NCBI RefSeq assembly: GCF_000154785.2
Contig: NC_015730.1
Span: 992,001 to 1,056,000 of the forward strand
DNA: 64,000 nucleotides
Direction: 5' to 3'
DNA from: Roseobacter litoralis Och 149
GTDB taxonomy: Bacteria > Pseudomonadota > Alphaproteobacteria > Rhodobacterales > Rhodobacteraceae
The position numbers and the translations under genes were made by a program. Positions 28,004 to 33,023 of this stretch are shown here, piece by piece; within the stretch, counting starts at the first letter, position 1, and each line of letters opens with the position of its first letter. Below the pieces are notes generated by a model that ran no database searches, was not told the origin of the DNA, and saw only the letters and a list, made by a program, of their open reading frames with translations.

Positions 28004-28321
28004 ATGCAACTTTATGGTTTGAAAAATTGCGATACTTGCCGGAAAGCTATGAAAGCCTTGCCGGGTGCTGTGTTGGTAGATGTGCGCAGTGATGGCGTTC
28101 CGGATAGCGTATTGGCGCGGGCACACGAGACCTTTGGGGATCAACTGGTGAACACACGGTCCACCACGTGGCGCTCCTTGGATGAAGAAGCGCGCGGCAG
28201 GCCCGCCTTGACACTCCTAAAGGAACACCCTGCACTCATGAAACGACCGCTGATACAGCAGGGCGACACCTTGTATCTGGGCTGGAGCAAGGAAACTCAG
28301 GCCGCGTTGGGCGCAGCCTGA
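28004..28321 (+). CDS. ArsC/Spx-family protein
   Basis: A 105-residue thioredoxin-fold protein. It opens with MQLYGLKNCDTCRKAMKAL, giving the CxxC motif at C10/C13 typical of YffB/Spx/ArsC-like proteins, and has the family PALTLLKEHPALMKRPLIQQ with the conserved R-P. True arsenate reductases have a CX5R loop and a longer C-terminal part; this one is shorter and closer to the YffB group, whose function is poorly known. It is probably glutathione- or thiol-linked. It converges on the bufD-like gene, with 6 bases between the stops. Confidence 0.82.
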   Translation: MQLYGLKNCDTCRKAMKALPGAVLVDVRSDGVPDSVLARAHETFGDQLVNTRSTTWRSLDEEARGRPALTLLKEHPALMKRPLIQQGDTLYLGWSKETQAALGAA

Positions 28322-28327
28322 GCAGTT

Positions 28328-28882
28328 TCACATCTCTCGGGGTAGAACCTGCCGTGAAATCGCCCTGTCGAGCGACAGCGGCCCGGCGCCTTTGACCACC
28401 AGAACCAGCAGCACAAAGATCCAGAACGCGCGTTGGTCCATGATGATGCTGTCGGGAAACCGGTCAAACCACGCGCCGAACGTTTCAGCATGTTCCAGAC
28501 CGCCATGACCGATCAAATCGGTCAGCGATTGTACGATCACAAATCCGATCATGCCCAAAGCGCTCAACCGCGTGAAAAGCCCGACCACGATCAGCGCAGG
28601 CAGAATGAACTCTGCCCATGTCCCTGCGACGACCACAGCCCAATGCCATATGGAAAGCTGTGATGTGTCATAGACCACGGCCTCCATCACCCTGGGGAAA
28701 ATCTGCGCATAAGCGCCGACAGATGGTTGAAACAACCCCATGAAACCGTCGCCCAATTTGGTGAGGCCGGAGACCCAGAAATACATCAGCAACGTGCCTG
28801 CAAAAACCAAACGCGCCAGAGTTGGCAAGAGCCATTCTGCCCGCGTCAGGCGATCCGAAATGGCGGTGTAAAGGGTAATCAT
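28328..28882 (-). CDS. bufD: DoxX family membrane protein, bufferin locus (BufD-like)
   Basis: A 184-residue inner-membrane protein with about four hydrophobic segments and DoxX features (RLVFAGTLLMYFWVSGLTKL, ALIVVGLFTRLSALGMIGF). Its ATG overlaps the stop of the DUF2063 gene by 4 bases (ATGA), so it is translationally coupled to it. In the bufferin operons described in Caulobacter a DoxX-type protein is the fourth member, and its biochemical role is not established. The context here is the same, which is the basis for the symbol. Confidence 0.8.
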   Translation of the reverse strand: MITLYTAISDRLTRAEWLLPTLARLVFAGTLLMYFWVSGLTKLGDGFMGLFQPSVGAYAQIFPRVMEAVVYDTSQLSIWHWAVVVAGTWAEFILPALIVVGLFTRLSALGMIGFVIVQSLTDLIGHGGLEHAETFGAWFDRFPDSIIMDQRAFWIFVLLVLVVKGAGPLSLDRAISRQVLPREM

Positions 28883-29637
28883 GGTGTTTCCTTTGTAGTG
28901 TATTCTGTCAGGGCGTGCGTGGCGATCGCTTGCGTCAGCGAGGCTGTAAGGTCGAAGGCTTGGTGTGTACGGGCGATCTTTTCACAGGCGGCGCCAAATT
29001 CCTCGCCCGCATGCAGTGCCTCAAGCCAGTCCGCGCCACCGGGTGCCAGCAGGTGAGGTGCGGGGTCGAATTCGGGGCGCGTGATGATCACATCCTGCGC
29101 GATGGCACGCGGCTTGTCGGCGTTTTCGGTCATGTTGAATGCCCAGATGTCGTAAAGTGGCCAGCGTGAACGCAACACTTTGGTAGAGGGCTTCAGGCGC
29201 AACTTTAGCTGCATCAGCGCCGCCTCATCCTGTTGGAAAACCTCCGGATTGAGGTCTGGTGCGTCCGCTGCGTGGTAGGATTGTCGCATTTCAATATCAA
29301 GGCGCGCGCAATCCGCGAGATACCCCAGATGGGCGAGAGGCTCAAAGGTCTCCAGAAACGCGGGCAACGTGGCGCCATAGTGCATCATCAGGGGGGATCG
29401 CGGCGGGTTTTGCCTTGCGTAAACTTCGGCGAGTTGTGCAAAACCCCGCGCACCCAAGAGCTTGACAAGTAAAGGAAAAGCAACCGTCAGGGCTTCTGTC
29501 AGCGAGACGAGCACATTGTTGCGATAAACAGAAAACCGGTTGCCAGCGGGATCCCCTGCGCCATCCGTCAATCCGGGCGGCACCACTGCCTGAGCGTCAA
29601 GCAAGGCTGCGCGAAACTGGGTCTGTTCAACTGTCAT
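28879..29637 (-). CDS. bufC: DUF2063 protein, partner of the MNIO enzyme (BufC-like)
   Basis: A 252-residue cytoplasmic protein. The ATG at 29637 sits in an ATGA overlap with the MNIO gene, which argues against starts further upstream. The N-terminal part has the DUF2063 pattern [55 protein letters not shown] and then RSPLMMHYG. The family was once called DNA-binding, but genes next to DUF692 enzymes encode the partner or recognition protein that helps present the precursor peptide. That role is inferred here from operon position. Confidence 0.85.
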
Positions 29638-30488
29638 CCGACGGATTCGAGAGCCTGCGCGGCGCGCTCGGCCTCTGCCAGCAAGATCGGCCAGTCCGGC
29701 ACGTCGTTGTCCCATTCCACAAGAACGGGGCGCGGTCCGGTTTTGGAAATCGTATAGGCCAGCAAATCCCAGACCGGGTCCACGACGGGTTTGCTATGGC
29801 TGTCAATCAACAGCGGCGCGCTATGATCGTCCGCATCTTCGTCATGACCGCCAACATGAATTTCGCCCACCGCTGCGAGCGGATATGCGTCGATATAGTC
29901 TTTCGGGGTATAGCCGAGATTGGTCGCAGAAATAAAAACGTTGTTCACGTCCAGCAACAGACCGCAGCCGGTGCGTTTGACCAGTTCCGCCAGAAAATCG
30001 GTTTCGCGCCACGTGCTTTCGTCAAACGCCAGATAGCTTGACGGGTTTTCTAGCAGCATTTGCCGCCCAATGACCTCTTGAACCTCGTCGATGTGATCCG
30101 CGACATGCGCGAGTGTTTCATTCGTATAGGGCAGGGGCAGCAGATCGTTCAGAAACTCTGCACCATGGGTTGACCAGGCAAGATGTTCTGAAAAGCTCGC
30201 TGGATTTGTGCGATCCAGCAGTGTCTTGAGCCGCGCCAGGTGCGCTTTGTCCAGTGGCTGTATGCCACCAATGCTCAATCCGACACCATGAACGGATAAT
30301 GCGAAGCGGTCCTGTAATGCCCGCAACTGGGCGTGTGGGCGACCGCCATCGCCCATGTAGTTTTCCGCATGAACTTCCAGCCACTCTACGCAGCCGGGCC
30401 GTTCCATCAGGTCACTGAAATGCTGTGGTTTGTAACCAACACCCGGCGCAAGGGGCAGGTTGGGCGCGTGTGGGGAAGTGTCTAACAT
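29634..30488 (-). CDS. bufB: DUF692 multinuclear iron oxidase (MNIO), bufferin-modifying enzyme
   Basis: A 284-residue TIM-barrel enzyme of the DUF692/MNIO family, related to MbnB. The expected metal-ligand segments are all present: [56 protein letters not shown] and [11 protein letters not shown]. In bufferin systems this enzyme uses a multinuclear iron centre to convert cysteines of the precursor into copper-binding thiooxazole/oxazolone-type groups. It lies 82 bases after the precursor gene and overlaps the partner gene by 4 bases. Iron stoichiometry and product cannot be read from sequence. Confidence 0.9.
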
Positions 30489-30570
30489 GGGCTCTCCGAG
30501 AATTGCGGCCAGCCGAGAGGTGCCTGAAAAGCGCCCGACATCGAAAATGCCGGGCGCGGGAATGGATTAG

Positions 30571-30873
30571 TTATGCGGGCCGGTCGCGGTCCAGCTCTTC
30601 GAGCGACCCTTCGCGTGGAGTGCCGTCTGCCATGGCGGGCAGTTCGATCTCTGCGCATGTGCCTTTGTCAACAAGCGTCCATGCGTTGCCCTGATAATCG
30701 ACAGTGGACGAACCGGCGCATGTTGTGCCGGGGCCAGCAGCGCAATCATTCGCGCCCGCAAGCGAGATGCCATAGCATTTTTCCTTGGCGGCGGCCTGAA
30801 CGGTTGTTGTCTGCGCGACGAAGGCGGCAGCGACTGCGCTTGCGATTGCGACGGTTTTCATCGTGTTGGACAT
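30571..30873 (-). CDS. bufA: DUF2282 bufferin precursor, copper-binding RiPP (BufA-like)
   Basis: A 100-residue exported peptide. After a signal peptide ([17 protein letters not shown] up to TVQA) comes the DUF2282 core with four cysteines: C33 in [11 protein letters not shown]44 in ANDCAAG, C52 in TTCAGSS and C73 in KGTCAEI. The C-terminal 25 residues are acidic. The set of four cysteines, the KCYG start and the following bufBCD genes match bufferin 1 of Caulobacter, a ribosomally made peptide that sequesters copper in the periplasm after cysteine modification. AAAGGGAAA lies before the ATG at 30873; a second Met four codons later is an alternative start. Confidence 0.87.
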
Positions 30874-30956
30874 ATCATTTTCCCTTTTTAAACTGACCTG
30901 CTGGCCATCTGTGCCTCATTTGTATCAAAGCATGCAAAACATACCATTCACGAGCC

Positions 30957-30969
30957 TGTGTGTCACACA
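30957..30969. promoter_or_regulatory. Perfect palindrome upstream of the bufferin operon
   Basis: TGTGTG-T-CACACA, a 13-base exact palindrome, lies about 85 bases upstream of the bufA start codon, in the region expected to hold the promoter. It may be an operator for a dimeric regulator. No ECF-type promoter motif such as that used for bufferin genes in Caulobacter was recognised. Confidence 0.35.
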
Positions 30970-31011
30970 TGCGTCAGCAAATGGTGACCAAGGGGCAGAA
31001 AAACACGTAAA

Positions 31012-31076: not shown

Positions 31077-33023
31077 TTACAAAAGGTCGGGCGGCGTTGC
31101 CTCACGTCCCAAAGCTTGTGTTACAGCCTCAAGACTCTCAACGGTGGTCTTTTTCTCTCCGAGCCTGCGCAGGGTGACTGTCTGTTCTTCGACCTCGCGC
31201 GCGCCAACGGCCAGAATGACAGGGACCTTGCCGACGGAGTGTTCGCGCACCTTGTAGTTGATCTTTTCATTTCGCAGATCGGCTTCCGCGCGCACCCCAG
31301 CTGCCTTGAGTTGATCAACCACCTGCATCACGTAGTCATTCGCGTCAGTGATAATTGACGCCACAACCACCTGCCGCGGGGCCAGCCAGAACGGCAGTTT
31401 CCCGGCGGAATTTTCAATCAAAATCCCGATGAACCGCTCGAACGAACCCAGACAGGCCCGGTGCAGCATGTAAGGGCGGTGCTTTGCCCCATCCTCTCCG
31501 ATAAATGTGGCGTCCAACCGTTCCGGCAGGTTCGGATCAACCTGAAACGTGCCGCACTGCCATTCCCGGCCAATGGCGTCGGTGAGTTTGAAATCCAGCT
31601 TGGGCCCGTAAAATGCCCCTTCGCCTGCGTCCAGCGTATAGGGATGACCTGTCGCCTTGATCGCGTTTTCCAGCGCGGCCTCGACATGGTCCCAGCTTTC
31701 CTCAGATCCCACGCGCTTTTCGGGCCGTGTGGCAAACATGATCTCGAACTTCTCAAAACCGAGATCCTGATAGACGGACGACAGATAGGTGATGAAGGCC
31801 GCGCATTCCGCCTCGATCTGGTCCTCGCGGCAAAAGATATGGCCATCGTCCTGAGTAAACCCGCGCACCCGCATGATCCCGTGCAGTGCACCTGACGGTT
31901 CATAGCGGTTACAGGACCCGAATTCAGCCATGCGCAACGGCAGGTCGCGATAGGATTTAAGCCCCTGATTGAAAATCTGCACGTGGCACGGGCAGTTCAT
32001 GGGTTTCAGCGCATTGACCGCTTTTTCGCGCGCGTGTTCCTCGTCCACTTCGACGATGAACATATGCTCCTGATACTTGTCCCAATGGCCCGAGGCTTCC
32101 CACAGCTTGCGATCAACCACCTGAGGGGTGTTGACCTCCTGATAGCCCGCCGCGCGTTGTTTGCGGCGCATGTAGTCCTGCAGCGTTGTATAGATGGACC
32201 AGCCGTTTGGATGCCAGAATACTTGCCCCGGGGCTTCTTCCTGCATGTGAAACAGGTCCATTTCGCGGCCCAGCTTGCGGTGGTCGCGTTTGGCCGCTTC
32301 CTCCAGCATGGTCAGATGCGCTTTGAGCTTTTCCTTGCCCGTAAAGGCCACGCCGTAAATACGCTGCAGCATCGCGCGGTCACTGTCACCGCGCCAATAC
32401 GCGCCTGCGATGGACATGAGTTTGAACGCATCGCCGGGCACTTGCCCGGTATGTTGCAGATGCGGGCCACGGCACAGGTCCTGCCAGTCGCCGTGCCAAT
32501 ACATCCGCAAGGGTTCATCGCCCGGAATGGCGTCGATCAACTCGACCTTATAGGGTTCGTTGTTCGCCTCATAAAAGGCGATTGCACGCGGGCGGTCCCA
32601 CACTTCCGTGCGCACTGGGTCGCGTTTGTTGATGATCTCTTTCATCTTTTTTTCGATCAGGCCAAGGTCTTCGGGCGAGAACGGCTCAGCGCGGTCAAAG
32701 TCGTAATACCAGCCATCCTTTATTACAGGGCCGATTGTCACTTTGGTCTCTGGCCAGATTTCCTGCACGGCGCGCGCCATGATATGAGCAAGGTCGTGGC
32801 GCACCAGTTCATTTGCCTGTGCCTCGTCCTGCATTGTGTGGATCGCGATGGTGGTGTCTGCGCTGATTGGCCAAGCCAGATCATAGTGCTCGCCGCCGAC
32901 GGTCGCGCTGATCGCCTTCTTGCGCAGGGAGGTTGAAATGCTGGCTGCGACATCGCCAGCGGTGACGCCTGCGTCGAATTCGCGTGCGCTGCCATCGGGG
33001 AAGGTGAGAGAGATCTGGGCCAT
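31077..33023 (-). CDS. thrS: Threonyl-tRNA synthetase
   Basis: A 648-residue class II aminoacyl-tRNA synthetase of normal length. The N-terminal TGS domain ([20 protein letters not shown]) is followed by the editing domain with [16 protein letters not shown] and the zinc/editing segment [10 protein letters not shown]. The catalytic core has [20 protein letters not shown] and the class II arginine region [20 protein letters not shown]. The anticodon-binding domain ends the protein. It attaches threonine to tRNA-Thr. It is a single gene with a terminator. No T-box or other leader was recognised upstream. Confidence 0.97.

Follow-up and report, generated by a model that had tools for sequence, protein, structure and literature searches.

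What controls a bufferin operon in a genome with no match to the regulator that acts on its Caulobacter counterpart? The locus that raises this question lies in a 64,000-nucleotide stretch of Roseobacter litoralis Och 149 DNA (NC_015730.1, positions 992,001 to 1,056,000), which we refer to as the window. We consider it likely that this is an ordinary bufferin operon and that in one clade its σF-NrsF control has been replaced by a putative dimeric regulator. The genes, their family membership, the iron ligands of the maturase, the conserved dyad and hairpin, and the lack of an NrsF match were established computationally, and the features are as follows, in window coordinates:

28328-28882, minus strand: bufD, DoxX-family membrane protein (184 aa; PF07681, 28.9 bits, cut-off 23.6)
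28879-29637, minus strand: bufC, DUF2063 partner protein, PME-type 1 by family (252 aa; PF09836, 4.1e-23, 81.9 bits)
29634-30488, minus strand: bufB, MNIO bufferin maturase (284 aa; Pfam MbnB_TglH_ChrH, 353.6 bits; NF050167, 375.5 bits)
30531-30557, minus strand: hairpin starting 13 bases past the bufA stop and followed by CTTTTC (-20.8 kcal/mol)
30571-30873, minus strand: bufA, bufferin-1 precursor (100 aa; PF10048 DUF2282, 1.7e-24, 86 bits, cut-off 22.4)
30919-30924, minus strand: tentative -10-like TACAAA, at T/A-rich positions of an ungapped alignment
30948-30976, minus strand: candidate operator, the tandem dyad TGACGCATGTGTGACACACAGGCTCGTGA, conserved upstream of bufA and located 75 bases ahead of its start
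31077-33023, minus strand: thrS, upstream of bufA

The products of bufA, bufB, bufC, and bufD all score above the curated Pfam cut-offs, modestly so for the DoxX assignment of BufD. The initial annotation had placed four genes at 28328-30873 with 4-base overlaps among the last three, and this was borne out: ATGA overlaps join bufB to bufC and bufC to bufD, and a gap of 82 bases separates bufA from bufB. We took bufC as 28879-29637; a longer ORF starting inside bufB is also present. Translation likewise agrees with the 100-residue precursor carrying C33, C44, C52, and C73 that had been described. Genome-wide profile searches found a single MNIO-family match and a single DUF2282 match in this genome. 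BufB reaches 375.5 bits against the NCBIfam model NF050167 MNIO_BufB ("MNIO family bufferin maturase"), which has a cut-off of 310, scores 241 bits against the HvfB model, under its cut-off of 360, and had no match in a PHROGs search. The metal-ligand residues that the initial annotation had singled out for checking are in place: TglH binds iron through His71, His107, Glu151, Asp184, Asn187, His216, Asp229, His231, and Glu258 (PMC10880893), and in our alignment BufB keeps all nine (H67, H102, E147, D180, N183, H211, D229, H231, and E258). BufC has a length that is usual for a DUF2063 partner, matches the NCBIfam HvfC model weakly (30 bits, cut-off 142), and found no match up to an E value of 1 in a PDB sequence search; the same search with BufA returned one chance-level row (E value 0.065).

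To compare loci, we used a pattern scan of named genomes that found 519 encoding a relative and took the best 80 of these 519 as the near set, which is consequently weighted toward close relatives. The order A-B-C-D is kept on one strand in 79 of the near loci, and the remaining locus (L041, on a 4.2 kb contig) has A-B-C; conservation of order to this degree argues that the genes are associated beyond chance. The four-cysteine pattern is present in all 110 loci examined (80 near loci and 30 from the wider class). A DUF2282 match is present in 135 of the 385 class genomes and in 106 of the 149 genomes from the family Rhodobacteraceae. The best precursor match, from R. denitrificans (P0001), is 97% identical to BufA and is named only as a DUF2282 protein, and one from R. 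weihaiensis (P0005) is 90% identical and named BufA1 at NCBI. Given the family evidence and the existing BufA1 name of a 90% identical protein, the operon is of a known kind. The original filing as a bufferin-1 operon is thus backed by family models, nine iron ligands, the four-cysteine pattern, and the kept gene order, and judged by these sequence features it is nearly certain that the genes form an ordinary bufferin-1 operon, one more member of a large and already named family.

The closest studied system is the bufferin 1 operon of Caulobacter vibrioides (CC3254-CC3257), which has been described with these four families in this order and with a four-cysteine precursor (PMC12452194, PMC3511200); the likeness is one of families, order, and cysteines by description, and not residue by residue. 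The parallel with Caulobacter drawn in the initial annotation holds for gene set and order but does not extend to control: neither an NrsF match in the genome nor a σF-type site upstream of bufA was found here, and an unrelated dyad sits in the promoter region. More distantly, the captophorins, including oxazolin (HvfABC), and fontiphorin share an MNIO enzyme with a DUF2063 partner (PMC12668002), although oxazolin and fontiphorin precursors have EGKCG repeats, unlike BufA.

An acidic tail of 25 residues after C73 had been put forward as the main peculiarity of this precursor. The tail has in fact 27 residues (eight D/E and three K/R), and all 80 near loci have tails of 22-28 residues with negative net charge (median -4, range -7 to -1; -4 or below in 58 of 80). 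Tails have 11-27 residues and a median net charge of -1 in the 30 class loci, and 17-43 residues and charges from +1 to -8 in 30 family loci chosen by DUF2282. An acidic tail was therefore ruled out as a distinguishing feature, being common to the near loci, and it is not linked to the presence of the dyad. G89, S90, and L91, a GSL stretch in the tail, are 93-98% conserved across 111 aligned precursors, and the mean majority frequency over 81 near rows is 0.93 for the core (residues 29-73), 0.81 for the tail, and 0.68 for the signal region; judged from these alignments the tail is conserved, and hence no peculiarity of this precursor. The odd residue is R98, which is rare: among 81 aligned rows, 94% carry Leu here. 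Two family loci (L173 and L177) have 43-residue tails with an EADGF.GL stretch inserted ahead of RDLP. At the N-terminus, K6, a hydrophobic stretch, and an A-rich cleavage region can be made out by eye, which makes export via a Sec signal peptide plausible.

The 82-base gap after bufA holds the hairpin. Within the 60 bases that follow bufA, the strongest hairpin of each near locus has a median of -21.3 kcal/mol over the 80 loci compared with -11.6 kcal/mol for shuffled sequences, and -10 kcal/mol is reached in 78 of 80 loci versus 52 of 80 shuffles (single-base shuffles, one per locus). Stem sequences vary widely across the 16 loci compared. A terminator was considered and rejected for this hairpin, given that only 8 of 80 near loci combine a hairpin of -10 kcal/mol or lower with at least four T in the next seven bases. 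Because so few look like terminators, we prefer a role in RNA stability or partial attenuation, and the hairpin probably raises precursor levels over enzyme levels.

Upstream of bufA the conserved element is a 29-bp tandem dyad with the pattern TSACR-N5-GTG-N3-CAC-N5-YGTGA. A 36-base motif containing it scores more than 25 bits in 68 of 81 rows (the 80 near loci and the window), with a top shuffle at -2, by a model trained on the same 81 rows that it scored. Its core consists of two adjacent 14-base dyads (TSACR-N4-YGTGA) spaced by one base. The only later stretch of raised information in the ungapped alignment comprises T/A-rich positions 29-30 and 34-35 past the last CGTGA, and the -10-like stretch of the window is offset by one base from these; the alignment weakly suggests a -10 box, which would put the end of the dyad at -35.

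Within the family, the exact dyad is found almost solely beside bufA. The pattern occurs in 40 of 149 whole family genomes, at one place in each, whereas the reversed-pattern control occurs in none. In 39 of the 40 the site lies beside bufA, so that 39 of 106 bufA-bearing family genomes have it versus 1 of 43 family genomes without bufA. Among 30 sites that we fetched, 28 are upstream of bufA, one is between bufA and bufB (L116), and one is beside no buf gene (L117); the other ten sites are, by coordinates, 157-189 bases away from a DUF2282 match. When the search was extended to the class, the exact dyad was found in 9 of 385 genomes, two of them at bufA and both of these within the family; by coordinates the other seven matches are not beside DUF2282, and the control matched one genome. 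Allowing up to two mismatches, 19 of 30 family loci picked by DUF2282 alone contain the dyad, compared with 0 of 600 shuffles, and 11 of the 30 do not contain it. This genome has one exact site; elsewhere in it two sites at three mismatches were found, which does not exceed the reversed control (four), and this search thus found no regulon. L116 and another locus (L073) have a strong dyad, or a second site, between bufA and bufB, which may reflect a shift of the dyad to drive only bufBCD. Searches of open-licence literature listings on bufferins or DUF2282/DUF692 in Rhodobacter, Roseobacter, or Rhodobacterales, and on bufferin regulators and promoters, turned up no account of an operator of this type, and we know of no regulator family that matches the dyad. 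Taken on its conservation and distribution, this clade-specific control region looks like a real and so far undescribed candidate operator.

Control of the Caulobacter operon is described as involving σF and an NrsF-type regulator at the site GTAACC-N16-CGAA upstream of the operon (PMC3511200). Here, no NrsF (PF06532) match was found in the genome at an E value of 0.001, at which the Caulobacter positive control was detected, and a σF-type site (GTAAC[CG]-N15-18-CG[AT][AT]) is absent upstream of bufA. Of the 149 family genomes, 22 have an NrsF match, which scores over the cut-off in 21; NrsF is found in none of the 40 genomes with an exact dyad (0 of 39 with bufA) versus 17 of 67 bufA genomes without one (Fisher 2e-4). 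In the 30 family loci, NrsF over the cut-off is found for 0 of 19 with a dyad versus 9 of 11 others (Fisher 4e-6), although both Fisher values overstate independence because the split between dyad and NrsF follows phylogeny and related genomes are counted separately. In seven of the nine, NrsF is adjacent to the buf genes, and the genome of one dyad locus (L173) has a sub-cut-off NrsF match with two stops. By raw counts without a shuffle control, a σF-like site lies upstream of bufA in six of nine NrsF loci, 1 of 19 dyad loci, neither of the two others, and 2 of 81 near-set rows. Those two others (L175 and L183), whose genomes gave no NrsF match and which have no dyad at up to two mismatches, are possibly controlled in a third way. 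Outside the family, many bufA genomes likewise have neither NrsF nor the dyad.

A 72-row tree of BufB, for which the bootstrap had not settled, places all 31 dyad rows in a single clade of 39 rows (support 99/92), together with seven rows classed as other and one NrsF-adjacent row (L163). Of the seven NrsF-adjacent family loci, six group apart from these, in a clade shared with L170 (100/99). Dyad presence requires at least eight label changes on this tree, and losses, or diverged dyad sites that escaped detection, are thus needed. Clustering of ORFs in the 80 near loci shows two common neighbors, thrS upstream and an ArsC/Spx-family gene downstream. The latter, convergent with the operon in the window (28004-28321, plus strand; PF03960, 54.8 bits), lies on the downstream side of buf at 41 of the 80 near loci. 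The gene thrS is next to buf in 79 of the 80 near loci, in 26 of 29 loci with an exact dyad, and, among the family loci, in 15 of 19 that have a dyad and 1 of 11 that do not; many of the loci counted cover only about 1.5 kb. Since most dyad loci have thrS, conservation comes partly from joint inheritance of this entire stretch. The gene is missing from three exact-dyad loci and from four family dyad loci, and in these six genomes (seven loci, two from G453) the dyad is kept beside other, unrelated upstream genes, so that it is tied to bufA. A terminator-like inverted repeat is visible by eye between thrS and the dyad. An adjacent regulator gene was sought and set aside, with none recurrent among the neighbors in the 80 near loci and only unrelated genes upstream at dyad loci without thrS; an ArsR-like HTH protein encoded some 3.4 kb upstream was likewise discarded as the regulator, as it is present in only 16 of 80 near loci.

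The neighborhood bears directly on whether the dyad is a protein operator at all. That it is instead part of thrS, as its 3' end or terminator, or an RNA structure, would suit its palindromic form and the presence of thrS beside buf at all but one near locus, and yet we regard this as improbable: the exact dyad is far commoner in family genomes with bufA than in those without, remains in place where the upstream genes are others than thrS, and is separated from thrS by a distinct terminator-type hairpin, and the sole site away from bufA (L117) has unrelated neighbors. Conservation extends to base identity, beyond pairing alone, and on this ground and for its tracking of bufA a dyad acting only as RNA was rejected as the main reading.

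With a protein operator preferred, the signal to which the operon responds has still to be weighed. Its main job might be another stress, such as gold, chromium, cadmium, or oxidative stress, instead of copper, given that Caulobacter σF genes including CC3254-CC3257 have a reported chromium response (PMC3511200), that gold-induced gig operons are reported to overlap bufferin operons, with some precursors fused to MerC (PMC12452194), and that the control region here is unlike that of Caulobacter. The precursor core is strongly conserved, however, and the studied bufferin-1 product is reported to bind copper and to help growth in excess copper (PMC12452194), and we consider another main stress unlikely. 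A relic, with genes that persist while BufA is neither modified nor made, is hardly credible when all frames are intact, the iron ligands and cysteines are kept, and the dyad is exact.

We therefore return to a working copper bufferin, for which the cysteine chemistry, the metal, the stoichiometry, and the putative regulator with its signal are what we infer. In Buf1 the central two cysteines are described as modified and the first and last as disulfide-bonded, and Caulobacter bufferin 1 is reported to carry thiooxazoles, to chelate Cu(I) and Cu(II), and to aid growth in excess copper (PMC12452194); thiooxazole chemistry has been proposed for the whole captophorin class (PMC12668002), and work cited in a 2026 preprint has the Sec signal peptide doubling as the leader for BufB-BufC (PMC13419390). 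By homology with Caulobacter, the same cysteine chemistry and copper sequestration would operate here. In this bufferin-1 operon of the captophorin class, BufA would be synthesized with a Sec signal peptide, BufB acting with BufC as partner would oxidize the central cysteines C44 and C52 to thiooxazoles, a C33-C73 disulfide would form after export, and the periplasmic peptide would bind copper, with BufD as a predicted inner-membrane accessory protein and the hairpin probably allowing the precursor to build up beyond the level of its enzymes. Within the Rhodobacteraceae clade to which this genome belongs, the operon would no longer be under σF-NrsF; a putative dimeric regulator may bind the 29-bp tandem dyad at the -35 region as two adjacent dimers and control the operon from a σ70-type promoter. 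As to how this arose, we lean slightly toward a history in which control in one clade passed from σF-NrsF to a dedicated regulator, acting at a dyad that occurs about once per genome, at roughly the time when the operon joined thrS.

If true, this would point to a single-operon metal regulator that is so far undescribed, and the locus would be an instance in nature of a conserved RiPP operon whose regulation was replaced. The control region predicts a regulator with a near-unique target, for which the exact 29-bp pattern could serve as bait, and would make the inducer of bufferins in these abundant marine bacteria directly testable.
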